Source of the DNA: a virus
Virus record (IMG/VR): IMGVR_UViG_3300033388_004609
Span: 22,349 to 86,348 of that record
Strand: one strand, 5' to 3'
Length of the DNA stretch: 64,000 bases
Part shown: positions 4,632 through 63,938 of the stretch, piece by piece
How positions within the stretch are numbered: the first letter of the stretch is position 1
Layout of the letters: each line of letters starts with the position of its first letter
Made by a program: the position numbers and the translations under genes
The notes under the pieces: model-generated
Databases searched by the model: none
What the model saw: only the letters and a program-made list of their open reading frames with translations
Told to the model about the DNA's origin: nothing

Positions 4632-5186
4632 TTATTTTATATCTTTAAGCCAGGTGGCTTTCTCTTTATCTTCAAACATTCCTGCTTTTCCTCCACCCCG
4701 GATTATCATCTCTTCTTCTTCATGAAACACTTTCCTCTCCCATTTCTCCAACTTCTCAAGTATTACTTCTATATCTTTTAAACTCTTCGTGATCTTTGCA
4801 GGTTCATAATCTTTTTTCTTTACTGGGTTATATTTTAAACTTTCAAGATAAGCTATAAGAGAATCTACTGTCATTCTAATAGACTTAAGGTATCTCATAG
4901 AGGAAGTAAGTTGTAATTTTTCATACTTTTCTATTGCTTCTATAACGGTATCATCAGGAATATACTTTTTATCTTTCATGATATCTTTAGCAATATTCTC
5001 CTCTTTCTCTAAGCCAAAGGTATTATATTCTGACTTATAATCAGCAATAAAATATATATATGCAAATTCTTGTTTAGCTTTTTTCTTGGTTTTTGAAGGA
5101 TCACGATCCCATATTTTTTTAAATTCCGGCACCAACATTAACATTGGATCAGGTACCATTTCGTTATTCTCGTTATAATTAAACAT
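4632..5186 (-). CDS. Conserved phage protein next to TerL (possible small terminase)
   Basis: 184 residues, mainly charged helices (many Lys/Glu, e.g. KDIEVILEKLEKWERKVFHEEEE near 130-155, given here in part). It has no catalytic motif. It lies directly upstream of TerL with a 6-base gap and downstream of an 88-aa HTH-like gene. Small-terminase subunits are often helical proteins encoded at this place, so a TerS-like role is possible, but nothing in the sequence proves it. Confidence 0.6.
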   Translation of the reverse strand: MFNYNENNEMVPDPMLMLVPEFKKIWDRDPSKTKKKAKQEFAYIYFIADYKSEYNTFGLEKEENIAKDIMKDKKYIPDDTVIEAIEKYEKLQLTSSMRYLKSIRMTVDSLIAYLESLKYNPVKKKDYEPAKITKSLKDIEVILEKLEKWERKVFHEEEEMIIRGGGKAGMFEDKEKATWLKDIK

Positions 5187-19952: not shown

Positions 19953-20025
19953 CGGGAGTCTGGTGTAATCAGGTAGCATACCTGCCTTGGAAGCAGGAGG
20001 CGCAGTTCAAATCTGAGGTTCCCGA
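19953..20025 (+). tRNA. tRNA-Pro(UGG)
   Basis: Acceptor CGGGAGT/GTTCCCG (two wobble pairs), anticodon stem CCTGC/GCAGG with loop CTTGGAA, T-loop TTCAAAT. Base 37 is A, where bacterial tRNA-Pro normally has G. The variable loop is short. The 3' CCA is not encoded. Confidence 0.85.
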
Positions 20026-20027
20026 CT

Positions 20028-20101
20028 GTGACTGATCCCGAAGTGGTCGAGGGGCCGGATTGTGATTCCGGTATCAGTGGGTTCGAGTCCCACCAGTCAC
20101 C
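20028..20101 (+). tRNA. tRNA-His(GUG)
   Basis: Acceptor GTGACTG/CAGTCAC, anticodon stem CCGGA/TCCGG with loop TTGTGAT, T-arm GTGGG/CCCAC. C73 as expected for His, but the -1 base is T, so the extra G-1 is not encoded. It starts 2 bases after tRNA-Pro. Confidence 0.92.
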
Positions 20102-20105
20102 CATT

Positions 20106-20177
20106 GGCCTTGTGGTGTAATGAATAGCATGTAACGCTTCGAATGTTATGGTTCTGGTTTGAATCCCGCCAAGGCCT
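20106..20177 (+). tRNA. tRNA-Arg(UCG)
   Basis: Acceptor GGCCTTG/CAAGGCC, anticodon loop CTTCGAA on stem TAACG/TGTTA. Reads CGN codons. Confidence 0.9.
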
Positions 20178-20183
20178 CTCTAT

Positions 20184-20259
20184 TGTCCCTTTAGCCCAAT
20201 TGGTAGAGGCATCAGGTTTAAGCCCTGTGTAGTCTGGGTTCGAATCCCAGAAGGGACAC
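20184..20259 (+). tRNA. tRNA-Leu(UAA), class I shape
   Basis: Acceptor TGTCCCT/AGGGACA, anticodon loop TTTAAGC on stem CAGG/CCTG, T-arm CTGGG/CCCAG. It is only 76 bases long, with a 5-base variable loop and C73. Bacterial tRNA-Leu normally has a long variable arm and A73. Confidence 0.88.
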
Positions 20260-20263
20260 ACAA

Positions 20264-20339
20264 TGCTAAAGTGTGCTAACTGGCAAAGCAGCGATACTTA
20301 GAATATCGTGGATGTGAGTTCGAATCTCACCTTTAGCAC
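20264..20339 (+). tRNA. tRNA-Leu(UAG), class I shape
   Basis: Acceptor TGCTAAA/TTTAGCA, anticodon stem CGATA/TATCG with loop CTTAGAA, T-arm GTGAG/CTCAC. 76 bases, short variable loop, C73, A37. Reads CUN codons. It is not a stop suppressor, as the anticodon (not the codon) is UAG. Confidence 0.9.
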
Positions 20340-20344
20340 AAAAT

Positions 20345-20416
20345 TGTCCTTTAGTATAATGGTCAGTACACAAGGCTTTGATCCTTGAAATCCCGGTTCG
20401 AGTCCGGGAAGGACAT
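20345..20416 (+). tRNA. tRNA-Gln(UUG)
   Basis: Acceptor TGTCCTT/AAGGACA, anticodon stem CAAGG/CCTTG with loop CTTTGAT, T-arm CCCGG/CCGGG. Last member of the operon. No terminator of usual form follows directly. Confidence 0.93.
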
Positions 20417-20453
20417 CTATACCTATCTTAAATATAATATATAAACACTATTT

Positions 20454-45792: not shown

Positions 45793-46683
45793 TTATCTCC
45801 ACTTATGTTGAAATTCAAGTAACCAATCAGGATTTACACTTTTAGCATTTGTAACTTTATTATGAAAATCATAGTAAGAAGCTAACCCGGGAATACTTTT
45901 CTTAAATTCATTCCATCCTCTTAAATCTCCCTTTTGTGTAAAAGCTCCTTCTTTGTTTCCTACGGCTATATCAGCTAAAGCAATATTTAGTTTAGTAAAT
46001 GCTGTTACCGCCTTATAACCTCTAGCTAATGAGACTGGTCGTGATGCAGATTCCAAAGTACGTAAAAGGTCTACCGGATTATATTGTTGAGTTAAATTAT
46101 CAACAAGGTACATCTTCCACCATTTTTTTAGTGTATCATCATCATCTTCGTCTCCAAACAATTTAAGATATGCTCCATAGAATATTGCTATTTGTCCTAT
46201 AACAATAAAAGCATCTATAATATTTTGTTTTTGTTCAGCATCTAATACACTCCATCGATAATTTCTCTTTGCTTTATTAAACGAAATAATAGTTAAAGCA
46301 GCATTAATAAACGTTTTCCATCTACCTTCATTTAATCTAGCAGTTCTTTCATAAACAGTTTCTCCTTCGTGTTTTTCATCAAGTTCTTTCCAATAACCAA
46401 GATCATATTCTAGTCTTTTCGAATGATAGGTATTTATAAGCAACCTGGGTAAATATTTCTTAAATTGAATAAAAGCTCTACCTATTGCATATATCTCGAT
46501 ATTAGCTGCCTCCTCTTTCCTGTAACCACCTTGCATTCTCTCATGAACTTTCTTCATCTTAGCTATCTCTTCTGATGTAAGTTCATTAATAGGTCTGTAA
46601 ATAGCTGATTTACCGGTACCGATCTTTTTTACCGGTACCGATCTTTTGGTATCCTCTTGGTGGTGCAACCCATTTGAGTTCAT
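45793..46683 (-). CDS. C-terminal segment of the giant protein, shifted frame (2)
   Basis: About 280 meaningful residues, from around 46630 onward (KIGTGKSAIYRPINELTSEE). It repeats the KIGTGK end of the preceding segment: the shift lies exactly at a 19-base tandem duplication. It contains amphipathic and hydrophobic stretches (AFIVIGQIAIFYGAYLKLFG) that suggest membrane contact. Removing one copy of the repeat joins it in frame to the 46610-47296 segment. The listed ATG at 46683 is probably not a real start. Confidence 0.7.
   Translation of the reverse strand: MNSNGLHHQEDTKRSVPVKKIGTGKSAIYRPINELTSEEIAKMKKVHERMQGGYRKEEAANIEIYAIGRAFIQFKKYLPRLLINTYHSKRLEYDLGYWKELDEKHEGETVYERTARLNEGRWKTFINAALTIISFNKAKRNYRWSVLDAEQKQNIIDAFIVIGQIAIFYGAYLKLFGDEDDDDTLKKWWKMYLVDNLTQQYNPVDLLRTLESASRPVSLARGYKAVTAFTKLNIALADIAVGNKEGAFTQKGDLRGWNEFKKSIPGLASYYDFHNKVTNAKSVNPDWLLEFQHKWR
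46610..46647. repeat. Perfect 19-base tandem duplication causing a frameshift
   Basis: Copies 46610-46628 and 46629-46647 are identical (TTACCGGTACCGATCTTTT). As 19 is not a multiple of 3, the second copy shifts the giant gene's frame. Confidence 0.93.
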
Positions 46684-47296
46684 GCACCCCTGTCTCTTTA
46701 TTAAATACTATATCATAACAATCCCATAAACTTTTACCTGTTTTTGGATGCTTTAAATAATGCATCTGAGCTACCATCGTAGTAAGAGACACATACTCTT
46801 CCGGTTTTGCGTGGAAAACATACATTGAAGATTTTGACATAGATTTATTCCTTGTTGAAAGCATGAATTTTCTGTTTGTCCATACATTAGGTAAAAACTC
46901 ACTAAAATATACCTTATCTGCAAACACATTATCAGCTATTTTAAAATCTATTGCATCTCCGTCAATATTAAGAAAGCTCGAAGCTATAGAACCTTTTAGG
47001 GCCTCTCTATAGGTAAGACTCCTAGCATGTAATCCATTACCACCACCTTGCATAGGCCTTAACCACATTATAGTAGAACTTGACCAATCAGTCATAAGGT
47101 CTATCACATTATCTACTTGTACAGCCTTTCCCATTATTCTTATTGGGTTACGAGAAGTTTTCATTCTCATTTTTCTATTAAGAATATCACTTATAAGTTT
47201 TTTCTCAAGAAAGTCTGCGGTATTTTCATACATAGGTTGCCCTTCTCCATCTTTCTGCATTCGCAACCAATGTTCTAAAGCTTTTCCTTGATGCAT
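46610..47296 (-). CDS. Segment of the giant protein, shifted frame (1)
   Basis: 228 codons, of which about 215 (QGKALEHWLRMQKDGEGQ onward) continue the giant protein. Deleting a single G (minus strand; C at 47294 on the plus strand) would let ...YKKYMDSVY run on into HQGKALEHW. Contains PMQGGGNGLHARSL and no catalytic motif. Either the gene is truly broken, or there is an assembly error or frameshifting. Confidence 0.7.
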   Translation of the reverse strand: MHQGKALEHWLRMQKDGEGQPMYENTADFLEKKLISDILNRKMRMKTSRNPIRIMGKAVQVDNVIDLMTDWSSSTIMWLRPMQGGGNGLHARSLTYREALKGSIASSFLNIDGDAIDFKIADNVFADKVYFSEFLPNVWTNRKFMLSTRNKSMSKSSMYVFHAKPEEYVSLTTMVAQMHYLKHPKTGKSLWDCYDIVFNKETGVHELKWVAPPRGYQKIGTGKKDRYR

Positions 47297-50200
47297 ACAC
47301 GGAATCCATGTATTTCTTATAAGTCATTTCTCTGACAAACGAATCATAACTATATTCTAAATTGTCTGTATACTCCTCTGCTGAATCAATTTTCAAGCTA
47401 CCTAAATGATTAACCGGTAATGCTTCTACTTCTTCATTGCTATTTGCAGACCATCCCTGATAAGTATCTTCAATATATCTTGTTAGTTTTCTTTTAGATA
47501 CTTCTTTCATGTATTCAGGAGTTAAAGCACCGACAATATTTGATCCTTTACCTAAATCATAACGAATCTCTTCCATTGTTTTAATAGCCTTTGGAAACCA
47601 TCCTTCATAATATTCGAAAGCTTCATTTTTTGCTCTATTCTGATTAATCAATTCCATAAATGTAACACCTCTTTCTTCTCCGGATATAGGATCCGTTTTA
47701 TATCTGGCAATCTGATTCATAAAAGCATCAGAACCCACAAACCATGACTTAAATTCTGCGTTAATAAAATCAAGGTATTTCTTTTGTGCTTCACTCAACT
47801 GTTTATACTCATCATCAGTAGAGATAACAAGTCTTTTTATATTACGGCCTTCTTGGGTAAAATATGTATAAAAAGGAGCATATAACTCTTTGTAGTTTAT
47901 ATCCGAAACGCCCAATGCTCTTACAGTAAATTTTTTCTTTTTATACTCTTCAACTATTGGTTCAAGCAAAGCCTTCATTTTTAAATCTTTACTTAATGCT
48001 TCATTTCTTACCTGATGTCTTCTCCTATCACGATACTTTTTCCATATTTGCACAAAGGGATTAGGTACATCTGAATAATTGCCAATCCATACCATTACCT
48101 TAGATATATCATAACCTTTCTCCGGAATAAGTTCCATTGAAGGATCAGCACTCATTACTTGTATTTCTTTGGTAAGTTTCATTAAGCGTTTTTTATCAAT
48201 CCTTGAGAGATCCTCAAACCTTTGTTCTTTCCCTTTAATTAATGTCATCTCTGCATACTTACTAGAAAGTAATTGCTCATTGGTAAGTTCACTACTCATA
48301 CATTCTTCTTCTATTGAATCCGTTGTCATATTAGTATATTCAGATACCCAAAAAGCTTTTGGTGATTTTTTAATTATCTGTTCATATATATCTTCAGATA
48401 ATCCTGCTTGCTTTAATGCCTTTTTATCCTTTAAGAACGATTCAACCATTGGGAGATAACTATTAACAGCAACTGCCCTATCCATGTCATTATAATCAAT
48501 CTTATATTTGTTAGGAATCCATGTAAGAGATAATTCTCTAAATTGAATATTTGGATTTTCAATCTTTAGCATAAGAGCATAAAGCATAACCTGTAACTTG
48601 GCTCTGTTTCTTTGATTATCTGTTATTTCTATTTCCTGATTACCATATTTAAGAAGATTAACAAATGGTGTCATATCAAATCTTGAACCGGTTTTAAAGT
48701 CTGTGATAGAAAACTTACCATCTGAATGTTGTGTTAAAAGGTCTATTGAACCACCAAATCCTAATATCTCTGATATTACCTTAACCTCTGATAATAACTT
48801 ATCTTTTAACTCATCAGGTACACCTTCCGAAAAAGTGTTAATTCTTGCTTTCTTCATTATTTTTAAAAAATTCTCATCTACCCAATTCCAATCATTTACA
48901 TTTATCCCTACCCTAGAAGCAATATCACGTATGTCAAGATCTATCTGTTCAATATTCCTACCTGAGTTAAATACCTTATCTATGTAACGCTGTATTTTCT
49001 TATGTATAATTTTTCCTTTGGTCTTACCTATCTCCATATTAAGGTCCATACGATCTCTATATTCATCGTAATTCTCTAAATCTCCTTCGTCTGTTGTTTG
49101 CTTGATATCATGATCTATATTTTCCCATATCATATCCGCTTTTCTCTCACCAAAGGTCTTCTCTGTATCAATCTTTCTCTCCACAAATTGATTAATAAAT
49201 CCTTTTACCCTATCAGTTATCCTCTCAAATTTCTTCCCAAGAAATGTATAAAAATCTACTTCCTCTCCATTTTCATCAACCTCCAAAATAATCTCATTAG
49301 ATTTATTTTTTATATCATCAAATAACTTATCTCTTTTTTCTTCGTCTGTCAGTTCTTTCTCCTCTACCTCTGTCTCAACCTCTGCTTTTAATGTACGGAA
49401 CTCTTCTTTTAGATATGATTCTCTCATTTGTTTAAAGAATGGATTTTCTTTAGCAAGATCCTCTATCTCATTCTCTCCTGCATATATCTTAAGATCATAA
49501 CCGGTAATAAACTTCTCTACCACATCAAGCAATGATTTTTGTTTAACGAATATTGATTTTAGAGCATCCCATATTTTCCTTAAAATATTTTTCTCTTCAT
49601 AAGGTATAGTACTTAAGAATTCTCTAAATTCAGGATGTTTAAGTACATCTGCTAAAAATTCATATTGTGATTTTAGTCCATAAAAATCTTTACCTTCTTT
49701 CTCTGCTCTCTCTTTAGCTATCCTAAACATATCATCAATCTTCTCTTTAAAAGCCGGATTACTCATATATGTTGTCGTTGTTACAGCATGAAACAATTCA
49801 TGAGCAATAGCCATATCAAATCTAAATAGATTGTCTACCTCACTTGCACCATTAACCTTAGTAAGATCAATCCTAACAGTACCGGTCATAGGATCAAATT
49901 CTGCAAATGCTTCCCCTTCTATCTTACTAAACACTACTTCTAATTTACTTTCATATTTTCTTAATACAGGCAATATAGCATCAATAAACTTCCTAATATG
50001 CGGTAAACCTACCCTATCTCTTATCTCAAGTGCTTTATCAACAACAGATGTCGAGGTGGAATAATTCTCTTTTAAATATTCAATTTTACCCTGTTGTTCC
50101 AGTTCATATTCCTTTCTCATCTCATCACTAGAAATATTTTCTATCTTCTCTAAGTGATTGGTAGATGAAAATAAGGTCTGTTGCTTGCCATAGAGCCAAT

Positions 50201-53200
50201 CTAAGAGCACTTCTTTGTTTATGACTACTTCCCATCCATAACTTGTAGTAATCTGTTTAAGGACCTTTAAGTTGCCGAATTCTTTCCTATTAATATTATT
50301 CTTAAATGCCATCCCTTCACCTTCTCTACCATTTATCATTACCACCTTACCCTTTTTAGGTGCATAGAAAGGAGAACCTCTTTTTAATAATCTCGTTTTT
50401 AATGTATTAGTGTATTTCTCAACTGTACTTTCAGCTTTTAATGTACGAGAAATATCCTTTACTGTCATGTAGTTCTTATCTATCTTATCTACAACAACAA
50501 TTCTTTTATCGATTCTTGCAGGATCATGGTAATTAGTTAAGGAAATAACGTTACCCTTACTCACTTTAAACCCACGATAAAATATTCTATTATTTTTATT
50601 GTTTGCTGTTTGAACATTTCTCATACCGGGATCAAAAGCTTCACTTATATCATATCCATTCTCTATAATATCCCTGTTAAGATTATAAAAGGTTACTCTA
50701 TTTTTATTACCGGCTTTTTGATAATATATTATTTCACTATTAGCCGGGGATACTCTCACATATAATTCTTCTTGTCCATAATATCCTCTATTACGAATAA
50801 CCAAAGGATATTCTTTACCTTCTGAATTATCATACTTTCTATCAAACACAATACCATCCTCGGTACCATAATAGATATTTACTTCTACACCATCAATTTT
50901 TGTTTTACCAGTAGGCATAAGATTTTCATCAAAGGAATTTTTAATAGATAACTGATCAGTATAATTGATTGCTGTCTCAATAGTAAAATGATCCAATAAT
51001 CCATCTAATTGTTTTCTATTACCTGGAGCAACAAGCTCTGACAGCTTCTCCGTAAATTGCTTATCAATCTTTTTATAAAGATCAACAGGCAGGACAAGTG
51101 AATAATTAGTTGTTCCAAATTTCAATCCAAACTGTAATATTCCATACGATACGAACTCTCTTTGAAAATCGCTATACTCATTATCAGCTAACTTCTCATC
51201 AATCAGTATACCAATATAACTAGAAGTACTTTTACTCCAAACAAATCTTAATCTATTGAGTTCCATAAAAGATTTTTGAAAGCTCAACAAATCCGTTGCA
51301 TCAAGGTTAGTACCACCAGAAAATCTTAGGAACCAAGTTTTATTTATAGGATCAAATCTTGCTTCAATATTACGTAAGAACAAGTTTTTTGGCAATAACC
51401 TTCTCGCCTTATCAATCTTCTGTATCAGATGTTGACTGAATGCCTTTGGTCCGGTAAGCTGCCTATCCTGCCCCTCGCTATCCTTATACTTCCATGGTGG
51501 TACATCATCAAATGATTCAAATCCACTCATAAGATAACGTACAAACTCTTCTCTTTTTAACTCATTGTTTTTTCCTTCATTTCTATTATCCAGTTTTATA
51601 TTTACACCATTCTTTAACTTCATATTATCTATAAACTCATATAAAGCCGGAGAATGTTTCAAGAGATTATCACGAAGAGTGTTCCTTAAGAATTTTAACG
51701 TCCTGTAAGCTGCAAATATATGCGGATTGGATTTGAAGTAATTACTTATATCATGCGAGAATTTCGTATCCACTTTTGCCTCTTCGGTTGTGGTACCATC
51801 ATCATTTAATTCCTTACCGAATACCCTATCTGCAAACTCCATCTGTTCATCCATTGCAGCTACACCATCTGGCATATTATTTATAAGGTTGGTGAAAAAT
51901 GAAAGTTTTGTCATGTCAGTACTTAATGCCATTGCCTTACTCCATACATTCTCAAGTACTGATAATTGATTAACGAAGAACTCTCTATCTGCCTTGGTAA
52001 TCTTATCCGGATGGTTATTAATTAGATCACGCATATCTTTTCGCCACTTCATCCCCTTCTCTAACATCTCATCATTCACCTCAATTAATTCCAATTGGTT
52101 AACCTCTTCTACACCTAATCCTTTTAATAATAATTTCTTTGTTGCTGAATAACCATTGAATTTTTCTTTACTAAGGAATTTTATTGCAGGTTGTACCATT
52201 ATATTATTTAAGGTTTTTATATTAACCCCATGTCCTTTAAGTACAATAAATTCATTAATAGTATTTTTATTAATATTAAGCCTTGGAAGGATCATCAACT
52301 TAACATTATCCACTGCGGAGTTAAGAAACCCATCAAGGATCTCCCATGTTGTTAATTCCTTATTCTCCTTACCATCCTTATCCAATTCGTAATCCCGTAT
52401 CTGGTCATGCTCCACTCCATTAATTACTATTCTTATTGTCTTATCTTTTTTTGAACTCTCATCATAATCCTTTACAATCTTAGGACTTGTCTGTCCTTCA
52501 CCTGCACGCATCATGTAAGCTAACATCTTTATACCATTAGCAAATATTCCTATTGATTCACTACCTCTAAATACTGCATCATGTGCAGCCATGTTATCTA
52601 AAGGATTAGAAAGGTCAAGATATAATCCCTCTTTCTCAAGTTCTTTTTTAGTTAGTTTTCTAATCTTATTTAGCCTATTAATATCTTCTTCAATAAATTT
52701 TGTATTGATAGAGGTTAACATTCTTTCTCTATTCCTCTCGGCAGAGAATGCTTCAAGAAATGCCTCCACAACAACGTTCTTATGATAACCGATTAAGGTT
52801 TTGTTATCCCAATCCTTTGCTGGCTGATCAGCTAATACTAACTTACCGTCTTTATTCTTTGAATACCCAATAGGATCACCTTTATCATTAAGAACCCGGG
52901 AAATAACAAACAACTCATCTACATCAAAGTCTGAACCATGTAAAGGAACAAGTTCTTTAGGAGCAACAACCACGTTAGTATCTAGTGTATCATAAAACCC
53001 AACTACCCTTAATGGTACTGCACTGTGCATCTCAGAGGAAGGCAAACGAAAGCCGAAAGCATCATTATAAAGAAATATCCCTGTTTCTTCTTTACCTTGT
53101 TTCCATAAACTATCTATTCTATCTTCATAACTTTTAGATAACATTCCCCTGGTGACTAATACTTCTGCATAAAGATTACCATTCTCATCTTCTTTATATT

Positions 53201-56200
53201 GTAATTCTTCTCCATTTGGTTTTTTAATACCCAATGAAGTCTGCAATACATGCACACGACCCGGGAACCTCATACGAACAGTATCCTTTGTTAAGGCAGA
53301 GGATAGGTGTACAGCCACGCTACTGGCAATTGCAGGGAAGTCAACACTTAACCCTTCGGATAACATCTCATGCTTTCTCTCCTGACCAGGAGTATTAAAC
53401 AAGGACATCATCTTACTTTTTAATCCTTTTACAGATAATTCTTTTTCAAATTTATCCAGTCCATCTTCTATAATCCATGTTAATGACTTGTATGCTTTTG
53501 CTGCTGACTCAACATTTGTCCCTAAGATATTAAGGAAATATATCAACTGTGAAGGATTAGCTATCTCATCTGTGATAGAAGATTTAGGGTTCTGGCTTAT
53601 CCGAAAATTCTCATTTGATAATTCCATGACAGAGTTCTCATCATACTTAAACTCCTCACCAGTCTTACTTGTAATATCACCCCACCCAACAGTAACAGAA
53701 GGATTACCAACCTTAACAGCACTATCAAGCACTGCCTCACCAATCCCTTCATCTCTCATGTTCTGTCTTAAATTCCTTAATTCCGGATGATCAGCCACCA
53801 GATCATCACTAAGCACAATAACAGAATACTTCACACCTCTTGTAATCCCTTTACTACAAGTACCAAAATAAACTGGTTTTAAAACATTTATAAGATCATA
53901 AGCATTATCAAACCCTCTATTTATCTCATCAAATCTCTCTGGCGTAATAAACCCCTGTCCATCACCAGGCATATAGTCACCAAATTTTTGTAATACTTTT
54001 GATACATCCTTTCTCTTAAGCAATCTTTGTAAGAATCCCTCAAGATTTTCTTTTTTCTCAACAGGATCTTTTATTACAATTGACTTGTAGGTTTTTCGCA
54101 TCCCGAAATCTTCATTGATAAACCCTTTCATTCCGGGAGCAAATACTAATGCCATCCTCTTAAGTAAATCATTACCATTCTTATACTGTGCAAAATCACC
54201 TGCTACCAGTTGGTTAAGGTTATATGAATTAACATAGTTGTTTGACACGTAGGCATGAATCATCGGTAATAGATCCTCACGAGATAAAACATACTTACCG
54301 TCTTCACGTACCCGTAATCCACCTTCATGCTTCTTGTTCATCTCTTTCATGTCCCAGGTAGAGAAAGTATCGCTATCAATAAATTTATTTAGATTAGTTA
54401 TTTTAAACAGATCTTGATCAAGATTAACACTCTCTGCTATAATAGCATCTGTAACCTCTGTTGAAAGGTTAAGTAATTCAGTATACATTCTCCTCGTTAA
54501 CCCGGAAATTTCTTTCTCTGTCAATGGTTTCTTTCGTAAATCCCTACCATCCAGCACATCTTCTAAAATAGAAAGGTTAATAAGCTTATCAGTTTTAAAA
54601 TTTGCAAGTGTTGTTTCAAAACTTTCATCCCTGTTCATTATCTGTCTTAGCATATCACCAAGTGCAGCTTTCACTTGTTCAGGTTTCAATACCCCTACCT
54701 CTGCACCTATAATATTGGGTCGTTCAGCAATAGTATAGAAGTACTGGGTGTATTTCTCATTACCTTTTCTCGATGTTTTAAGATGTGCTAAGAATCCATA
54801 TACGAAATTCCTTGCAAGGAAATCTTTATTCAATTCTTTTTTATAAGGAGTAATATACTCTACACCTCTCCAGTCTGTATCCCTCATCCCATCGTGATCC
54901 ACTAAACTATAAATATGATTTAATCCACGAACAAATATATTATTCTTAAAGAATTTTGTTTTTAAATGTTCCGGTAAACTAAGAGTAGAAAATTTTCCTA
55001 CACCGCGATAATCACTTGTTGATTTCCTATTAATAAGATTGAAAAGGATATCATGTGCCTGTGATGCCTGGCTCCATACATACTTGTTTTTCCCTTCTGC
55101 ATCTCTTATTGATGTTGCTCTTATAAATTCATTGTTATGATTAATTAACTCTGCGAGATTACGCACAAGCGATACTCCATCATTCTCCAATGCTTTCTCA
55201 AACGAATCTGAATCTGTTACTAACTGTGTATGTGTCTGAACAAATTCAATAATATCATCTCTTACGGTATTAATATTATTCTCCGGTAAATAAACTGCAA
55301 GGTACCCAAGGTCTATTGATGCGAGGAATGCTCTTACAAATTCTACCGGTTCATCTTTATACTTCTCTATAAGTGTCGGTATCTCTACATCACGTACATT
55401 ATTCCATGTATTGAGGTTTTTAAATTTCTCTCTCAGGGCATTCCTTACTGTTGCAGCTATTGATGAGTTGGGCCCAAGTGCTTTCCCTACGATGTATGCT
55501 ATCTTGTATAATCCATTATCCATCTTACTCCTACCTACCTTAACATGCTTCTCTTTTTGTGATGCGAAATTGTTCATCAACCCACGGATAGTATTGCCGG
55601 ACATTTCTTTTTGTAATAATATTCCAAGCACATCATCACTTATATCAACCTTACGGGATATATTACCAATATAATCAACTGTGCTTTGATTAGTTCCTCT
55701 CTTAATAATTGCTATTCCCTTTTGTTTAGCTTCGTTTATTCCTATTACATCCTCTACTCCATCTTCACTATAGATAAATGTATCTTCATTAATAAACTTA
55801 CCGGTAGTTGGTAATAATTGTCCCTTAAGCTTTCCTTCCTTAACTTGTTTTGTTGCAGCAAGTTCCCACTCATCTATAAAGTAATCCAGTACTGCTCTTG
55901 TACGCTCATGACTACCGTTCTTTTTCCATGCCTGTCCTAACTGTTCAAAGAATCTTTCATTACCTGGCTGTAATCCTTCTACAAGTTGAAGCATACGAAT
56001 ATAGCTCTCTCTCCAATTCAGAAACTTCTTACCTAGTTTAATACCCGATAAGAAATCTTTTATGCTCTCGGTAACTTTCGCTTCACGATCAACTTGGTCA
56101 TTTTCTACTGTATGCTTACCAATTACTCCATCTCCAAGCTGTTTCCAGTTTTCAAATATCTCTCCATCAGACAGTTTTTCCGTAGGATTAATTATCCCAC

Positions 56201-59200
56201 GTGTCTTAAAGCTCCTGTTAGGATAAATATCTTTTACAAGTCGATCAAAGTTCACATACTTACCGTCTTTATTTGTTAATAGCATAGTATTAAATAATCC
56301 CTTATACTCAATCCACCTTGCTACATCCTTAAACAACTCATCATCTTCTTCTGATGCTTCTTTATTATCCTGAATACGATTATATAACTCAGTCATATCT
56401 TTATTAAGATCATCAAGCACCATATGATAAAGCTCCTTACGAGTCAAAGGTAAGCCCATATAGCCACTTTTAATACGCTTGTGGTACTTACTCTCGACTA
56501 TTGCTCTTGCGTTGATGTATGACTCTAATGTACCCCATACCTTGACTATATTTTTAAGTGCTCTGGTAATATCCACATAAGGAATTAACAAATCATTATA
56601 AAATCCTCTCTCGATCCTATTAAAATATGTATCAAGTGACGAACTATTATCACTTAAGAAATTAAAGTATCTTAATATCTTATTAAATATTTTTCTTATA
56701 AAAGAAGACTTAACAACTTTCTCATTACTTCTCCACTCCTGAAATTTAAGAGCTATCTCTTCCTCAATCTCCACCTGTGTCATTAATTTTGTCTGCGGAT
56801 ACTCTTTATTGAAACTCTCCATAAACAATCTCTGTTCACCGGTAGTAAGATACTGGTTGAATATCTTATGGAATACTTCGTGGCGTACAATATTTTCATG
56901 TACTGTACCATCTTCATTTTTAAGTATATAAAGCACACCGTTCTTAAATAATCCCCAAACATTATCTCCATGCAAAACATCCAATGTCATCTGATCAACA
57001 AATTGTATCATATCTTTATCCATTCCCGGGACAAGTCTTTTAGCCAATGCCTGTGCCTGTGCAATAGATATCCTCTTTCCTAGTCCTGCCGTTGCATCTT
57101 TCTTTAAGGTCCTTGCATTTATATCATCGTCAAGTTCATCTGATATGTTTTTCTTTTTCTTAGTTATTTTTTCAACTACTTTTTTAGCAGCTTTCTTAAT
57201 CTCGGCAACTTTACCCTCATCAAGCTTTACTTGTATTCTTGTAGGATTAACCTTCTCGAATGATGTAGCAAGTTTACTCTCAAGTTCCGAATTGTCTTTA
57301 GAAAGGTCTATATTTTCTCCAAGCTTATTAATATCTTCATAATCAAGAGGCAACCATAGTTCTTCATGCTCATCTGTTTCTTTATTAAATGTTAATAACT
57401 GATCAAGTGTTTCAGATGTAATAGTAGGGATAGTATATTGTTTTCTCTTCTCATTCAATTCTTCCTGTGTAGCAAATCCCATCTCTATAAGTGCACTCTC
57501 TGCTTCAACAATATTATTAGCATTAACAATGGTAAATTTCGTTCTTATATTCGCTGGTAAGTTGTTGCGTAATATTCTTATAAGCTCTTTATAATACTGT
57601 CCATATGTATCTTCACCAGCAAGTAATGATTTACCATAAGTTATCTTAACACCCTTACTGGAGAATGAAACTCTAAAACGTGTATCTCCTGTCTTTGGAT
57701 TAGCAGTTGCCAATAGATTAATTGTACTCTGAGCCAACCCCTCACCTGCCTTAAGAGCATCTTGGTAAATATATCTTCCTTTATCTTTTAAGTCAGTTGG
57801 ATCTGCCTCTTTCACAAATCCGGTATTCTCATTAGTTTTACTTTGTTCAAAGATGAATTTATTATCACTGGTATCTATATAAGAATTATTTCCTTTCTTA
57901 TCCTTGTACTTACGCATCTCTTCTTCACTTGCAAAAGATACTCTCTCTTTCCCATATCCATAAAACAATCTTATTACAGGATCAATGTTCTTATTCAGTT
58001 GATTAAACTGGTCTTCTGTTATATCGGGTAAGAATTGTTTATTCTTTTCATCTTTTTGGTATGCTTCATAGGTCCATTGTGGAATTTCTTTTGCAACTAT
58101 CTCCTTACCATCCAGCTCATAATTATTACTAAATCTTTTTATAAGAGAATTAAATGATGCTTGTCCAAGTTTCCCTATACCTATCTCTTCAAGTACCTTT
58201 ATAGCATCTCTGAATTGCATCAGCTCCTGTATTCCTCTATCACCTTTCATTAACCTTCTTGGGTTAAGTCTTATATATTGTGTGGCTACAGGTTTCCCTT
58301 CTCCTTGTCTTTTCCATGCAGTAGTTCTTATGATAAGATAAGGTACACCTGCATAGAAATGTGTTTCAGCTATTTTCTCTCCTTCGAATAATTCAGTATT
58401 CTTAAATATCTTAACTGATATCTCTGTAGTTGTTTTGCCTCTGCGATGAAAACCCAGGTTAAATTTATCCATTAACCGGTTTAGGATACCTACTCCTTTA
58501 TCAGTAGTTTTTTCAGAATACTTATATGTTAAAGGATGACTAGCTTGTAAATATCCTTCAAGTAGTATTGATGGATGATTTTCTTTAAAAAGTAATTGTC
58601 CACGCCTGTTAAGCCCATTATATACTGTCTTATCACTCTTGCTTTTACTTATAATTTTATCATGAAGGTCTCTTAGTGTCTTGGATTTTTCAAGGTCTTC
58701 CATCCCAACTACACCTATCAGGTGCCAGTTCTCTCCTGCTACCGGTTGTCCGTTGTTATTTAATTCTTCTGCTACAATATGTATCTCTGGGCGTTTAGCT
58801 TTTTCGTTATAAACCATTATGTATTTTACTATCTGTACTTGTGGTCCACCATGTACTCCTTTTTTATGATAATTTATATTACCGTAAGAAGGAAATTCAA
58901 CTTCATGTACTCCTTTCACATCTACCGAAGGAGCTTCTATAATCTCTCCTGATTCAATTTTAATAGTGGTTGCTGAATGTGCCTCACCCTGTCCTGATTC
59001 ATCTTCTACCTGTGGTGTTTCATTGCCTTCAATATCACTATCGGTTATATCCCTCATCTGGCTTGTAGTAGGCTTAGACTTGTTTATAATTTCTTTGCCT
59101 AATATTTGTGCTTCAAATGCCAATCTTTCTGAATACTCGTTATTAGCCTGTTTAATATCTTCTTTTGCTTTATCCTTATCATATTCCTCACTTTCCAGTA

Positions 59201-62200
59201 TCTCATTTTTAAATGTATTTGTATGATCAAATATAAAAATATATTGTTTTGCTCTCGACAAAGCAGTATACATTGCTGTATTATACTTATAAGCTCCCTC
59301 TCCCCCCTCTCTAATATCCACATACACTTCATCCCACTCAATCCCTACTGCATCAATAACGGTTTCTACATCTGCAAATTCTTGCATATCATCATACTTT
59401 GCTTTACCTTTTTCGTCTGCTACGATAATTACTTTTGTACGATTATTTTTTGAATGTACCTTTACTTGATTCTTTAACTCTTCTGTAGTAGTTCCTACAT
59501 GCACCCCAGTTGCTGATTTACCCAATGGTGCATTTGCCCTGGCAACAATCCCTCTTACGCTACGTGTGTTGTCCTGAAACTTATTCTGCACATCAAGCAC
59601 TGACGATACATTACTACGATACACAATAGTTAATGGTTGAAGTTCATGTATGTTAATCTGTCCCCTCTCGGAAGCATTTATATCTGGTTCTGTAGTAAAA
59701 GATTTATTTATTTGCGTGGGATCACCAAGCACAATTACCTTAACCGGATCTCCTTTACGTAATTTATTTATTTCATTTATTGTTTCTCCAAGAGTATTTA
59801 ATTGTTTTGAATCTAATGCTCCTATCTCATCAATAACAATCACCTTTATCTCATCACCGATCTTCTCTGGACTTAACTCATTTGTAAGTATCCCTTCTTT
59901 CTCCGGATTAAGTGAATCGTGTATTGTTTTTATCTGTTTATTACCGTGCGAAACAACTACAAACTCATTTGCTTTAAGTCCGAAACTATTAATCATCCAC
60001 TTAGCAACAATAGTAGTCTTTCCTGTACCAGCCAGTCCTTTCATGTAAGCCCATTCCTGAAACTTCTTAAGCCCTTTGCCAAGTTTTAGGTTAAACCATT
60101 TTACTCCTTGCCGTATAGCATTTACTTGCTGGTTTGAAGGAGCTTTATCTTCTGACTTTTGTAATTCAATTTCTGTCATTACCTGATCACCTATTCTTGC
60201 ATCTGATTCAAGTGTGGTAACAGCATTTATTAAGTTCTCAATTTTCAATTGCAGGTCCAGAATACTCAAGAGCTCATCTTTTGTAATCCCATTATGTCCT
60301 GTATCGGGTTCGTTCTCAAGACTTGTTTTTAACTGTAATACATCCTTATTGTTTTTATATACATCAAGAGCAACTTTGTTTGTTGCCGTCTTTAATCCCT
60401 TTGCACGATTTACCAATGCTTCAAATTGCTTAACAGGATTCTGACCGTAAAATTCTAATTGATTTTGAATAGTCCCTGTTTTAAGTAACATCTTGAGAGT
60501 AGGAAATCCAAGAAACAATTTCTTAAACTCATCAACCATTCCTGATATTTTATTCTCTATAACATCAATAACCTTATCACTCCTACCGGTATCTTTTACC
60601 TTATCGAGTATCTTATCTGCAAATATCTTATAGAATTTTGCATCTCTCTCACCCATCTTAGCCTTGCTTGCTTCTTCTATAATAGCATCGAACTCTTTAT
60701 GACCAATAGTATTACGTAATTCATTATATAATTCTTCGTCAATGATTTTCCATTTACCTGTTTTCTGATCAACAGACATACCGATAGAGTTGAATGATAC
60801 CTCGTTAAGATTCTTCTGGAAGTTAACATTTGCTGCTACCTTATTATTCAGGTTCTCTACTGCAACCTTAAGCACTTCGTTCATTCTTATTAATTGCTTA
60901 TCAACAGATTCTATGAACCCCTTAAACTCTTTACTTTCAAGTAACTTAGCCCTCTCTTCTCCTTTATAAATTCTTTTTATCTCTTTGAGTTTATTTATTG
61001 TATTCTGGACCTCACTAACATTAGTAAATGTTTCCGGGTTAGCTTTAAAGTTTGAGTCTGTATTCCGAGATGATTGTACGGGCATATCACCGAACATTCT
61101 TTTGAAATGCCGGTCCTCTGCTATTCTACTTCTGAACCTTGCTGGTTTACTCTTATTCTTAGTATCTTCTTTAAATTCTTCAAAGAAAGTTTTTAATTCA
61201 TTTAATGCCTTCTCATTCTCTTCTGCCATCCTCACAATTTCTTGGTCATCTTTAACCTTTTGCTGATCTTCTGCAAGTTTCTGTTCTTTTACCTGCTTTT
61301 GTTTAGTAAGATCATTAATAATCCCCTCGTTCTCTTTTATGCTTTTCTGTGCTTCTAAGGCCCTTTTACTTTTTCCGGCACCTCTGGCCATTAATTTAGT
61401 TAACGTCCCTGAGGCCTTCTCTAAAGCATCTTGTGCTTTCTTTATTTCAATATCCTCATCATATGCTGCTTCGCCACCACTTAATATACTCTCTACCTCT
61501 TGCTCGGTTTTTTTATCAAGGAATTTTTCTATATTATTCTCTGCTACCCTGGCACTCTCTTTCTGTGCTTCAAGTTTATCCTCTTCAATGTTTATTACTC
61601 CTTGTAACTTTTCAACATCTTCTTTAGTAATCTTCTGTTTATTACCTTGCATGTAGCTGATTACTTCTTTTGCCTCAATCTCCCCTTTCTTAACCTGCTC
61701 AATCATATTCTCTATAGTACCGGACACCATAGCATCTGCACCCACCTTATAGAAGTATTCATTCCTTAATCCAAATTCTCCATGTCTGAATGCTTCATCT
61801 TTTGTAAGAGCGAATATAGAATTGGGATCTTCCAATCCACGTATAGCTTGTTGCTCCTTTAGATCATATTCTAATTGACCAATAAGAATCTTATTAGGTT
61901 CTTCTTTCTTTTTCTCTTCTGTAATTTTTGTTTCAAGATCAGTAAAAGCATTTCTCTCCTTGTTGTATTCATTAAATAACTTCTTCTGTTGTTTTTTATC
62001 CAAGAATGCATTAGTAATCTTTTGTGAATCTTCAATTAGTTTATCCAGTTCTATTTTAGCCTGTTCTTTGTTAGTTAATAATTTACTTGCTTCATACGAA
62101 TTTCTTTTAATAGCTTCATAAAACAATGCTTTCTTTATTTTATTTTTAAAATCTACAAACGTTTCATCTCCTGTAAGATCTTCTATACCTATTAATTTAT

Positions 62201-63938
62201 TTTCTATCTCATCATATATGTTTTTGAACTTTTGAATATCAGCTTTTGCCATTCTCTTTTGAATACCGATCAATTCATCTTCTTCCGTAACAGAATCAAT
62301 CTCTCTTTCCTCCAACGCTTCTATTGCTTCATCAACATTCTCGAACAAAGGATTAGATATGTAACCATAAAATCTTCTTGATAATATTTCATCTTTTAGT
62401 GTTTTCTCATATATTGGATCATTTTTAATGGTTGCAACTAATAATTCATCCCAAATCCTTTTATCTCCTATCTGCTGATAAAACATCTTCATTGCTTTCT
62501 CAACATCAATCTCTGTCTTGCCATCTTTATTCAATAATGTCTCTACAGTTTTTTCAATCTGGTTACCATCTTCATCTTTTTCTGTAACAGTTTTAGAAAA
62601 TGTTTTATAAACTGATTTAATATTATCAGGATACTGCACATCAGCTACTTTTAATACAGCATCTAACATCTTTTCTCTATCTTCAATTTCAGCAATAGTT
62701 TTTCTTTCCTGAAATGCTTCTTTTATTCCCGCTCTACCACCATAAAGACCACCAACAATTGCTCCTAGCACCATTGCTTTCTGTCCTTCTGGTATCGAGA
62801 AATTATTTACCCATTCATTCGCATATCCTTCAAGCCAACTCACATCAGTTTCACCAGACATCTTTTTCGTTTCATATCTTTGAAAAGCTGCCTGCGGACC
62901 CTCTTCTAACAATGATTCAGAAGCCATACTCCCACCCACTTTCTTCATAGCATTGAACCAGACATTAACATCTTTTGAAGATAATTTACCAGCTTTTACA
63001 AGCTCTTTCATCTTCTTTGCATTTTTCCCTACACCACCAAAAAACATTCTTGACTGAATTAAATTAGGTACAGCAAGAAGTGCAGCATTAGCAACAAACG
63101 TATTCATTGCAGGAGTGGCAGCTTCATACTTAACATCCAGCATATCTTTCTCGGGTAATTCTTTATAAGACATTCCGTATCTATCCCATGCTATTTGCTC
63201 ACGTAAATTAGTATTTAATTCATCAGCTTCCATCCCAGCCTCTCCAAATGTATTCAGAACTGTTGCTCCTGCAAGTTGAAAAGTTTTTAAGCCTTTCCCT
63301 GCAAGACCAATCCCTTTACCAACTGCTCCTACACCAGCACCGATTCCATATGCCGCAAGTGAAAAAGCCACGGCATCAAAAGCATCATCATACCAAAACT
63401 TGGGTGTACCCATCTGTTGAAGAATATTCCCTTTATAATATTCTTTTTTACCATGAATAGGAAATTGTTCTCTTAATTGTTCATCAGCAACTCTAGCTCC
63501 ATCTGCTAACAAATTATCCCATATTATAGACGGATCTTTTATCATTCCCGGAGTACCTAATTCGTGTGCAAACCATAATGCTCCAGCTGCATGACCAATC
63601 ATTCCAGCCATCTTGGGCACGATAGATGCACCCCTACTAACAAGACCTCGTGAAAATTTACTCCATCCTGATTGGACTTCCCCCTTCATATATTCTTCAC
63701 TCTCATAAGGCATTGCCTGTCCGGTAAGGAATTTTCCTGATTCTTCGGTCGCCATCCTTGTATGTTCTCCAAAAAGGGAAGGATCTGACAAATCAAACAA
63801 AGCATTACCTCTTGCTGATTTAACAAACCCTTGTTCGCTTGGTCTTATAGGAAGATTGTTCTCGTCTAGTTGCTGAACATTAAGGAGACCTGCGTCATAA
63901 AGATGATAACGCGATCCTTTTCTTTTACCATTTGCCAT
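47226..63938 (-). CDS. Giant virion protein with helicase, RNA polymerase, proteases and nuclease
   Basis: 5570 codons, one of the largest phage genes. N-terminus: Gly/Ala-rich membrane-like segments (~190-215 AAYGIGAGVGAVGKGIG; ~390-405). Residues ~420-1150: long charged coiled coil. ~1290-1600: SF1 helicase with GLAGTGKTT (1301-1309), VIVIDEIG (~1366), GDPTQI and YTALSRAKQYIFIF. HEVFH at 2353: zinc protease motif. ~3200-3900: RNA polymerase; FRLPSSEMHSAVPLR then DFDVD (3670-3674), the metal-binding loop of the crAss-like virion polymerase. HELFH at 4713: second protease motif. GSIDLL and ITDFKTG (5078-5084): RecB-like nuclease. Probably packaged, cleaved and injected, then transcribes phage genes. 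Ends at a frameshift (see the 46.6-47.3 kb segments). Confidence 0.88.
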   Translation of the reverse strand: MANGKRKGSRYHLYDAGLLNVQQLDENNLPIRPSEQGFVKSARGNALFDLSDPSLFGEHTRMATEESGKFLTGQAMPYESEEYMKGEVQSGWSKFSRGLVSRGASIVPKMAGMIGHAAGALWFAHELGTPGMIKDPSIIWDNLLADGARVADEQLREQFPIHGKKEYYKGNILQQMGTPKFWYDDAFDAVAFSLAAYGIGAGVGAVGKGIGLAGKGLKTFQLAGATVLNTFGEAGMEADELNTNLREQIAWDRYGMSYKELPEKDMLDVKYEAATPAMNTFVANAALLAVPNLIQSRMFFGGVGKNAKKMKELVKAGKLSSKDVNVWFNAMKKVGGSMASESLLEEGPQAAFQRYETKKMSGETDVSWLEGYANEWVNNFSIPEGQKAMVLGAIVGGLYGGRAGIKEAFQERKTIAEIEDREKMLDAVLKVADVQYPDNIKSVYKTFSKTVTEKDEDGNQIEKTVETLLNKDGKTEIDVEKAMKMFYQQIGDKRIWDELLVATIKNDPIYEKTLKDEILSRRFYGYISNPLFENVDEAIEALEEREIDSVTEEDELIGIQKRMAKADIQKFKNIYDEIENKLIGIEDLTGDETFVDFKNKIKKALFYEAIKRNSYEASKLLTNKEQAKIELDKLIEDSQKITNAFLDKKQQKKLFNEYNKERNAFTDLETKITEEKKKEEPNKILIGQLEYDLKEQQAIRGLEDPNSIFALTKDEAFRHGEFGLRNEYFYKVGADAMVSGTIENMIEQVKKGEIEAKEVISYMQGNKQKITKEDVEKLQGVINIEEDKLEAQKESARVAENNIEKFLDKKTEQEVESILSGGEAAYDEDIEIKKAQDALEKASGTLTKLMARGAGKSKRALEAQKSIKENEGIINDLTKQKQVKEQKLAEDQQKVKDDQEIVRMAEENEKALNELKTFFEEFKEDTKNKSKPARFRSRIAEDRHFKRMFGDMPVQSSRNTDSNFKANPETFTNVSEVQNTINKLKEIKRIYKGEERAKLLESKEFKGFIESVDKQLIRMNEVLKVAVENLNNKVAANVNFQKNLNEVSFNSIGMSVDQKTGKWKIIDEELYNELRNTIGHKEFDAIIEEASKAKMGERDAKFYKIFADKILDKVKDTGRSDKVIDVIENKISGMVDEFKKLFLGFPTLKMLLKTGTIQNQLEFYGQNPVKQFEALVNRAKGLKTATNKVALDVYKNNKDVLQLKTSLENEPDTGHNGITKDELLSILDLQLKIENLINAVTTLESDARIGDQVMTEIELQKSEDKAPSNQQVNAIRQGVKWFNLKLGKGLKKFQEWAYMKGLAGTGKTTIVAKWMINSFGLKANEFVVVSHGNKQIKTIHDSLNPEKEGILTNELSPEKIGDEIKVIVIDEIGALDSKQLNTLGETINEINKLRKGDPVKVIVLGDPTQINKSFTTEPDINASERGQINIHELQPLTIVYRSNVSSVLDVQNKFQDNTRSVRGIVARANAPLGKSATGVHVGTTTEELKNQVKVHSKNNRTKVIIVADEKGKAKYDDMQEFADVETVIDAVGIEWDEVYVDIREGGEGAYKYNTAMYTALSRAKQYIFIFDHTNTFKNEILESEEYDKDKAKEDIKQANNEYSERLAFEAQILGKEIINKSKPTTSQMRDITDSDIEGNETPQVEDESGQGEAHSATTIKIESGEIIEAPSVDVKGVHEVEFPSYGNINYHKKGVHGGPQVQIVKYIMVYNEKAKRPEIHIVAEELNNNGQPVAGENWHLIGVVGMEDLEKSKTLRDLHDKIISKSKSDKTVYNGLNRRGQLLFKENHPSILLEGYLQASHPLTYKYSEKTTDKGVGILNRLMDKFNLGFHRRGKTTTEISVKIFKNTELFEGEKIAETHFYAGVPYLIIRTTAWKRQGEGKPVATQYIRLNPRRLMKGDRGIQELMQFRDAIKVLEEIGIGKLGQASFNSLIKRFSNNYELDGKEIVAKEIPQWTYEAYQKDEKNKQFLPDITEDQFNQLNKNIDPVIRLFYGYGKERVSFASEEEMRKYKDKKGNNSYIDTSDNKFIFEQSKTNENTGFVKEADPTDLKDKGRYIYQDALKAGEGLAQSTINLLATANPKTGDTRFRVSFSSKGVKITYGKSLLAGEDTYGQYYKELIRILRNNLPANIRTKFTIVNANNIVEAESALIEMGFATQEELNEKRKQYTIPTITSETLDQLLTFNKETDEHEELWLPLDYEDINKLGENIDLSKDNSELESKLATSFEKVNPTRIQVKLDEGKVAEIKKAAKKVVEKITKKKKNISDELDDDINARTLKKDATAGLGKRISIAQAQALAKRLVPGMDKDMIQFVDQMTLDVLHGDNVWGLFKNGVLYILKNEDGTVHENIVRHEVFHKIFNQYLTTGEQRLFMESFNKEYPQTKLMTQVEIEEEIALKFQEWRSNEKVVKSSFIRKIFNKILRYFNFLSDNSSSLDTYFNRIERGFYNDLLIPYVDITRALKNIVKVWGTLESYINARAIVESKYHKRIKSGYMGLPLTRKELYHMVLDDLNKDMTELYNRIQDNKEASEEDDELFKDVARWIEYKGLFNTMLLTNKDGKYVNFDRLVKDIYPNRSFKTRGIINPTEKLSDGEIFENWKQLGDGVIGKHTVENDQVDREAKVTESIKDFLSGIKLGKKFLNWRESYIRMLQLVEGLQPGNERFFEQLGQAWKKNGSHERTRAVLDYFIDEWELAATKQVKEGKLKGQLLPTTGKFINEDTFIYSEDGVEDVIGINEAKQKGIAIIKRGTNQSTVDYIGNISRKVDISDDVLGILLQKEMSGNTIRGLMNNFASQKEKHVKVGRSKMDNGLYKIAYIVGKALGPNSSIAATVRNALREKFKNLNTWNNVRDVEIPTLIEKYKDEPVEFVRAFLASIDLGYLAVYLPENNINTVRDDIIEFVQTHTQLVTDSDSFEKALENDGVSLVRNLAELINHNNEFIRATSIRDAEGKNKYVWSQASQAHDILFNLINRKSTSDYRGVGKFSTLSLPEHLKTKFFKNNIFVRGLNHIYSLVDHDGMRDTDWRGVEYITPYKKELNKDFLARNFVYGFLAHLKTSRKGNEKYTQYFYTIAERPNIIGAEVGVLKPEQVKAALGDMLRQIMNRDESFETTLANFKTDKLINLSILEDVLDGRDLRKKPLTEKEISGLTRRMYTELLNLSTEVTDAIIAESVNLDQDLFKITNLNKFIDSDTFSTWDMKEMNKKHEGGLRVREDGKYVLSREDLLPMIHAYVSNNYVNSYNLNQLVAGDFAQYKNGNDLLKRMALVFAPGMKGFINEDFGMRKTYKSIVIKDPVEKKENLEGFLQRLLKRKDVSKVLQKFGDYMPGDGQGFITPERFDEINRGFDNAYDLINVLKPVYFGTCSKGITRGVKYSVIVLSDDLVADHPELRNLRQNMRDEGIGEAVLDSAVKVGNPSVTVGWGDITSKTGEEFKYDENSVMELSNENFRISQNPKSSITDEIANPSQLIYFLNILGTNVESAAKAYKSLTWIIEDGLDKFEKELSVKGLKSKMMSLFNTPGQERKHEMLSEGLSVDFPAIASSVAVHLSSALTKDTVRMRFPGRVHVLQTSLGIKKPNGEELQYKEDENGNLYAEVLVTRGMLSKSYEDRIDSLWKQGKEETGIFLYNDAFGFRLPSSEMHSAVPLRVVGFYDTLDTNVVVAPKELVPLHGSDFDVDELFVISRVLNDKGDPIGYSKNKDGKLVLADQPAKDWDNKTLIGYHKNVVVEAFLEAFSAERNRERMLTSINTKFIEEDINRLNKIRKLTKKELEKEGLYLDLSNPLDNMAAHDAVFRGSESIGIFANGIKMLAYMMRAGEGQTSPKIVKDYDESSKKDKTIRIVINGVEHDQIRDYELDKDGKENKELTTWEILDGFLNSAVDNVKLMILPRLNINKNTINEFIVLKGHGVNIKTLNNIMVQPAIKFLSKEKFNGYSATKKLLLKGLGVEEVNQLELIEVNDEMLEKGMKWRKDMRDLINNHPDKITKADREFFVNQLSVLENVWSKAMALSTDMTKLSFFTNLINNMPDGVAAMDEQMEFADRVFGKELNDDGTTTEEAKVDTKFSHDISNYFKSNPHIFAAYRTLKFLRNTLRDNLLKHSPALYEFIDNMKLKNGVNIKLDNRNEGKNNELKREEFVRYLMSGFESFDDVPPWKYKDSEGQDRQLTGPKAFSQHLIQKIDKARRLLPKNLFLRNIEARFDPINKTWFLRFSGGTNLDATDLLSFQKSFMELNRLRFVWSKSTSSYIGILIDEKLADNEYSDFQREFVSYGILQFGLKFGTTNYSLVLPVDLYKKIDKQFTEKLSELVAPGNRKQLDGLLDHFTIETAINYTDQLSIKNSFDENLMPTGKTKIDGVEVNIYYGTEDGIVFDRKYDNSEGKEYPLVIRNRGYYGQEELYVRVSPANSEIIYYQKAGNKNRVTFYNLNRDIIENGYDISEAFDPGMRNVQTANNKNNRIFYRGFKVSKGNVISLTNYHDPARIDKRIVVVDKIDKNYMTVKDISRTLKAESTVEKYTNTLKTRLLKRGSPFYAPKKGKVVMINGREGEGMAFKNNINRKEFGNLKVLKQITTSYGWEVVINKEVLLDWLYGKQQTLFSSTNHLEKIENISSDEMRKEYELEQQGKIEYLKENYSTSTSVVDKALEIRDRVGLPHIRKFIDAILPVLRKYESKLEVVFSKIEGEAFAEFDPMTGTVRIDLTKVNGASEVDNLFRFDMAIAHELFHAVTTTTYMSNPAFKEKIDDMFRIAKERAEKEGKDFYGLKSQYEFLADVLKHPEFREFLSTIPYEEKNILRKIWDALKSIFVKQKSLLDVVEKFITGYDLKIYAGENEIEDLAKENPFFKQMRESYLKEEFRTLKAEVETEVEEKELTDEEKRDKLFDDIKNKSNEIILEVDENGEEVDFYTFLGKKFERITDRVKGFINQFVERKIDTEKTFGERKADMIWENIDHDIKQTTDEGDLENYDEYRDRMDLNMEIGKTKGKIIHKKIQRYIDKVFNSGRNIEQIDLDIRDIASRVGINVNDWNWVDENFLKIMKKARINTFSEGVPDELKDKLLSEVKVISEILGFGGSIDLLTQHSDGKFSITDFKTGSRFDMTPFVNLLKYGNQEIEITDNQRNRAKLQVMLYALMLKIENPNIQFRELSLTWIPNKYKIDYNDMDRAVAVNSYLPMVESFLKDKKALKQAGLSEDIYEQIIKKSPKAFWVSEYTNMTTDSIEEECMSSELTNEQLLSSKYAEMTLIKGKEQRFEDLSRIDKKRLMKLTKEIQVMSADPSMELIPEKGYDISKVMVWIGNYSDVPNPFVQIWKKYRDRRRHQVRNEALSKDLKMKALLEPIVEEYKKKKFTVRALGVSDINYKELYAPFYTYFTQEGRNIKRLVISTDDEYKQLSEAQKKYLDFINAEFKSWFVGSDAFMNQIARYKTDPISGEERGVTFMELINQNRAKNEAFEYYEGWFPKAIKTMEEIRYDLGKGSNIVGALTPEYMKEVSKRKLTRYIEDTYQGWSANSNEEVEALPVNHLGSLKIDSAEEYTDNLEYSYDSFVREMTYKKYMDSVYASRKSFRTLVANAERWRRATYV
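48650..48780 (-). other. RecB-like nuclease motif region within the giant protein
   Basis: GFGGSIDLLTQHSDGKF followed by SITDFKTGSRFD gives the D...DxK active site of PD-(D/E)XK enzymes; the QVMLYALML helix that follows is the usual QxxxY motif. Confidence 0.8.
49779..49820 (-). other. HELFH zinc protease motif within the giant protein
   Basis: MAIAHELFHAVTTTTYM (residues ~4709-4725): HExxH zinc site after a hydrophobic strand. Confidence 0.75.
52917..52931 (-). other. RNA polymerase catalytic loop DFDVD
   Basis: Three Asp in DxDxD (residues 3670-3674), preceded by HGS and by the RxPSxxMHS-like strand 45 residues earlier, as in double-psi beta-barrel polymerases. Binds the two catalytic Mg ions. 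Confidence 0.85.
56868..56890 (-). other. HEVFH zinc protease motif within the giant protein
   Basis: IVRHEVFHKIFNQYL (residues ~2350-2364). A second HExxH site 2360 residues before HELFH. One or both could mature the polyprotein. Confidence 0.65.
60012..60038 (-). other. Helicase Walker A within the giant protein
   Basis: GLAGTGKTT (1301-1309) of an SF1, RecD/Pif1-like helicase; the rest of the motifs run to about residue 1600. Confidence 0.85.

Follow-up and report, generated by a model that had tools for sequence, protein, structure and literature searches.

Giant RNA polymerases (RNAPs) of up to ~6000 aa are a recognised hallmark of crAss-like phages (reviewed in PMC10136315), and both injected virion RNAPs and zincin-bearing polyvalent proteins are already known (PMC7886860, PMC5512222). 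In phage phi14:2 the two-barrel polymerase gp66 (PDB 6VR4), which carries a DFDxD loop, is encoded between g067 and g065, and all three proteins have been found in virions by mass spectrometry; as cited in PMC7886860, this polymerase occurs in the virion and carries out the transcription of early genes. Likewise, gp47, gp50 and gp49 of crAss001 are virion cargo by mass spectrometry (PMC10172136). How enzyme cargo of multi-megadalton size is driven down a narrow phage tail is a standing question.

Here, we analysed a window comprising the final 64 kb of an 86,348-bp IMG/VR virus record. Judged by its portal, MCP and TerL sequences, the phage belongs to the Crassvirales, as the first-pass annotation of this DNA had proposed: the portal is ~35% identical to those of crAss001 and phi14:2 over 85-90%, and MCP and TerL match phrog_11589 (3e-98) and phrog_6681 (3e-104), respectively. 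The 5,570-codon frame described in that annotation is present (Table 1), with its start 62 nt away from the end of the contig. The size of about 6000 residues given for it does not hold for this frame alone, but is reached with two further frames of 228 and 296 aa, which extend the chain to ~6,094 codons. As both frames match the uninterrupted C-terminus of relatives, the latter frame with similarity to crAss001 gp49 (5e-6) and phi14:2 g065, they look like the result of two frame breaks in one coding sequence rather than separate genes. True gene boundaries at these positions are unlikely, given that the ends lack a cysteine pair and the relatives are continuous.

Table 1. Features of the giant cargo chain (positions refer to the window)
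Feature	Residues	Coordinates	Strand	Basis
Giant cargo/RNAP ORF, 5,570 codons		47226..63938	minus	ORF listing
Conserved N-terminal region, glycine-rich segments	1-560	62259..63938	minus	homologue of phi14:2 g067 N-terminus
SF1 helicase	~1295-1575	59214..60056	minus	GLAGTGKT (Walker A, 1301), DEIG, GDPTQ, YR, SRA
Zincin 1, HEVFH at 2353 and invariant downstream Glu	~2287-2440	56619..57080	minus	alignment
RNA polymerase module	~2500-4500	50439..56441	minus	homologue of phi14:2 gp66
Catalytic DFDVD loop	3670-3674	52917..52931	minus	invariant in 17 sequences
Zincin 2, HELFH at 4713 and invariant Glu	~4645-4800	49539..50006	minus	alignment
RecB-type PD-(D/E)XK nuclease	~4971-5130	48549..49028	minus	motifs, Pfam, model
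228-aa frame, C-terminal module continued past frame break		46610..47296	minus	52% identity to same position of L012
296-aa frame, C-terminal chain end past second frame break		45793..46683	minus	matches relatives

Relatives were retrieved with the conserved stretch around DFDVD, which yielded 36 IMG/VR loci whose adjoining DNA was then fetched; the RNAP region as a single-sequence query gave no PDB match, one weak phage match and no IMG/VR relatives. Residues 294-5555 are 35% identical to the protein of locus L012 across 5,453 columns, well above what chance would give. In a 19-member alignment, Walker A, the first HExxH, DFDxD and the second HExxH occupy identical columns wherever they are present, and other relatives divide the same chain among two to four genes. 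An assembly artefact fusing separate genes, which the first-pass annotation had named as a possible refutation, could be suspected from a single metagenomic contig with two frame breaks close to the 3′-end of the gene. However, the same chain occupies a single ORF of 6,045-6,679 codons in each of nine divergent contigs, which refutes this reading, and we regard its remaining probability as negligible.

The chain runs, as shown by sequence or model, from an N-terminal segment through an SF1 helicase, zincin 1, the two-barrel RNAP, zincin 2 and a RecB-type nuclease to a C-terminal segment. Residues 89-555 match residues 73-531 of phi14:2 g067 (5e-9), and no significant relative of the N-terminal region was found among solved structures. 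The previously proposed membrane-like N-terminal segments reduce to one glycine-rich stretch at residue ~189, to which hydrophobicity is confined. The helicase assignment, in contrast, was corroborated: Walker A, DE, GDxxQ, YR and SRA are all present, and 17 of the 19 members contain the motifs and match AAA_30/Viral_helicase1 in this region, whereas a motif search of phi14:2 and crAss001 found no SF1 helicase motifs. In the giant protein of one relative (L056, G008), an intein with an HNH-type domain lies inside the Walker A loop, and three of the five cysteines of that chain reside within this intein.

The two zinc-protease motifs of the first-pass annotation proved to belong to two conserved HExxH...E zincins that are homologous to each other (probability 95%). 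H, E, H, E and G are the sole invariant residues of the zincin 1 region in 17 sequences; the zincin regions show 17-19% identity, with HExxH and the downstream Glu being almost the only invariants. The profile of zincin 2 matches phage ejection proteins in the PDB (best E 5e-5) and, weakly, lethal factor. By HExxH and the downstream Glu, both domains are zincin metallopeptidases, with proteolysis as their predicted activity.

The RNAP profile matches 6VR4 with an E-value of 9e-51. Structure prediction around DFDVD, the check that had been suggested, gave a model of residues 3000-4190 (pLDDT 82) for which Foldseek returned the two-barrel 6VR4 at 6.6e-30 and QDE-1 at 3.6e-5. On the basis of the profile match and the model, the polymerase is of the phi14:2 gp66 type with a two-barrel fold and a DxDxD loop. 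Of the stretches earlier listed as being without recognised function, 2400-3200 and 3900-4500 turned out to be mostly flanks of this gp66 homologue. The RecB-type nuclease was likewise recovered, with D...DxK and QxxxY motifs, Pfam PDDEXK_1 in 13 of the 19 members (best 3e-10), and a model that resembles Exo5, MGME1 and Cas4 (prob 0.8-0.95), albeit with a weak E-value of only ~0.02.

The chain is colinear with phi14:2 g067-g066-g065 and with crAss001 gp47/gp50/gp49. The phi14:2 modules are homologous and in the same order, but are encoded by three genes with a Cys at each junction, and zincin 1 and Walker A motifs were not found in them; the phage studied here unites the helicase and both zincins in one ORF. 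In crAss001, the polymerase and C-terminal modules are homologous and the proteins total ~6100 aa. However, they are likewise the products of three genes with paired terminal cysteines, the helicase-side module A is encoded on the other strand, a Walker A motif was not found and the zincin 2 motif is absent. Partial fusions are represented by cr4_1 gp26 (4491 aa) and cr118_1 gp14 (4946 aa), and the polymerase/nuclease joint, termed B-C, is fused in the present phage too. The 3500-aa virion RNAP of phage N4 is similarly a giant ejected polymerase with a zincin-like HExxH domain and not a single Cys, but it is a non-homologous, T7-type single-subunit enzyme. Polyvalent proteins (Iyer et al. 2017, PMC5512222) are injected multi-enzyme proteins with zincin domains. 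Several unrelated enzyme domains are also present in this one protein, for which injection would have to be assumed, but its zincins barely reach Pfam MPTase-PolyVal, with a marginal match in 1 of 17 members. Hence, while a crAss RNAP of ~6000 aa is already known (PMC10136315), the full helicase-zincin-RNAP-zincin-nuclease map in one ORF is a new, richer variant. In the open-licence literature we found no report of the full domain map or of the cysteine rule described below, nor of Cys-free ejection proteins or disulfide-linked RNAP cargo.

The 5,570-aa ORF contains two cysteines, compared with 68 expected from the remainder of the genome (1.2%; Poisson P 8e-27). Cysteines are entirely absent from known ejection proteins, namely from N4 gp50, gp51 and gp52, from T7 gp15 and gp16, and from P22 gp7, gp16 and gp20. 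This depletion supports a role as an ejected protein, and may be a general mark by which such proteins could be recognised in sequence. By analogy with the phi14:2 and crAss001 homologues, with which the depletion is in line, we infer that the chain of this phage is a virion protein. T7 gp14 (L065, 27728-28318) has one Cys, located at residue 2.

Where the chain is divided, cysteines are found at the breaks. We scored Cys in the last ten residues of the upstream protein and the first ten residues of the downstream protein, leaving out L094 and the recoded L036. All 14 junctions from nine phages have a Cys on both sides; 28 of the 42 cysteines fall into 0.5% of the residues (P 1.6e-55), and the outer termini have none. 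When this set was enlarged by further loci retrieved with a crAss001 query, Cys was present in 36/36 RNAP C-termini at junctions and in 34/34 of the N-termini that follow, as opposed to 0/13 and 0/33 outer C-termini. Overall, 70/70 termini at junctions but 0/46 outer termini carry a Cys, a difference that corresponds to P~2e-33, a statistic that ignores the kinship of these sequences; in control genes the baseline for a terminal Cys is 17-19%. The N-terminus of the RNAP carries a Cys where the helicase module is a separate gene and lacks it where this module is fused (L081, L083, L090, L093, L097).

Junction pairs are found in phi14:2 and crAss001 as well as in DAC15 (gp078, Cys 2220 of 2222; gp076, Cys 5 and 2265 of 2265; gp077, Cys 4), Fpv3 (gp32, sole Cys 4286 of 4287; gp33, Cys 3) and phi17:2 (gp039, Cys 1957 of 1957; gp038, Cys 4 and 516 of 517; gp036, Cys 3). 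As annotated, cr4_1 and the MAGs cr113_1 and cr118_1 follow the rule, which crAss002 gp33 obeys only with its start re-called at Met33. Four seeming exceptions (L016, L023, L088, L103) conform on inspection; in L023, a lone in-frame stop at ~4766 within the helicase/zincin module lacks a terminal Cys, and the true end of this module, ...KKSCK, pairs with MEC of the polymerase. In L045 (G001) and L051 (G021) in-frame TGA codons interrupt the giant chain, and the resulting ends are mostly without a cysteine pair, which points to recoding of TGA and not to genuine breaks in the gene. Fpv3 gp30 (L132, 29912-31708) has a single Cys at residue 5 (MKKKC), for which gp31 offers no evident partner. Moreover, C1-type cargo proteins contain Cys pairs 8-9 residues apart inside otherwise Cys-free sequences (390/398, 369/378, 211/219 and 273/281 in L042 gp45, L041 g069 and L133 gp080).

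Since both TGT and TGC serve as junction codons and their positions vary, selection acts on the protein. A cause at the level of RNA or gene overlap was rejected, as both Cys codons are used and the two partner genes need not share a strand: in crAss001 and DAC15 the pair is kept although module A is encoded on the opposite strand and the partners are non-adjacent.

Taken together, these observations make it quite probable that the protein is a virion cargo chain that is packaged and threaded, whose continuity is under selection and which is stapled by cysteines after gene splits. The chain would be packaged in the virion, pass through the tail before the DNA does, unfolded and in single file, exit helicase end first, and refold in the cytosol to transcribe early genes there. 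Selection would protect the continuity of the thread: upon gene fission a Cys would be acquired at the C-terminus of the upstream and at the N-terminus of the downstream protein, a disulfide would re-link the two proteins inside the oxidised virion, and the reducing host cytosol would then free the modules. In fused forms, the zincins at the module joints would perhaps release the modules after entry. Extended to the Crassvirales as a whole, it is fairly likely that the cargo is one continuous thread, with fission mended by a disulfide staple and the enzymes separated by cytosolic reduction or by zincins. The cysteine rule, which holds at each break examined, would mean that the subunits are covalently connected in transit, as a single thread of fixed order, and would account for their being encoded by either one gene or several.

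Alternatively, the terminal cysteines might serve as a metal site, as a redox sensor or in portal or tail attachment. Disulfides are indeed used by virion proteins of crAss001, where they have been documented in tail proteins but not in the RNAP cargo (PMC10172136). However, the cysteines form matched pairs at internal junctions and never occur at outer ends, and they vanish on gene fusion and move with the break, which renders such a role unlikely. Mapped on an RNAP tree of 57 rows, the state of the polymerase/nuclease joint switched at least seven times, and Cys tracks the split state in 5/5 well-supported independent pairs, a number that cannot reach 0.05 on its own.

Gene breaks lie mainly immediately before or after a zincin, so that the zincins mark joints. 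This position, together with active-site residues as the sole invariants, would also suit a classical self-cleaving polyprotein, in which the zincins cut out helicase, polymerase and nuclease before or during packaging. Iyer et al. (2017) proposed that zincins process polyvalent proteins, and P1 DdrB does undergo processing (PMC5512222). In contrast, the N4 virion RNAP is packaged unprocessed despite its HExxH domain (PMC5512222), many split phages keep their zincins, and the Cys pairs at each tested break imply that continuity matters until ejection. We therefore consider self-cleavage prior to packaging improbable, and the sequence evidence disfavours it; as Cys is present at both sides of every tested break, cleavage, if any, would more likely occur after entry.

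The retention of zincins in many split phages further suggests that cleavage at joints is not their only role. They might be effector proteases acting on host targets and unrelated to the joints of the chain itself, in line with the similarity of zincin 2 to ejection proteins and, weakly, to lethal factor. This is a tenable possibility, though we do not favour it, given the placement of the zincins at joints. Moreover, zincin 2 is present in 12 of 13 chains fused at B-C and in a minority of those split there, an association that keeps its direction but is not significant after counting phylogeny.

Two further features of the window concern the genome at large. The gene for the terminase large subunit (1097 aa; 1332-4625, minus strand) contains an intein-like insertion at roughly residues 302-690, and positions 19953-20417 (plus strand) harbour six tRNA genes (Pro, His, Arg, Leu, Leu, Gln), none of them a suppressor.
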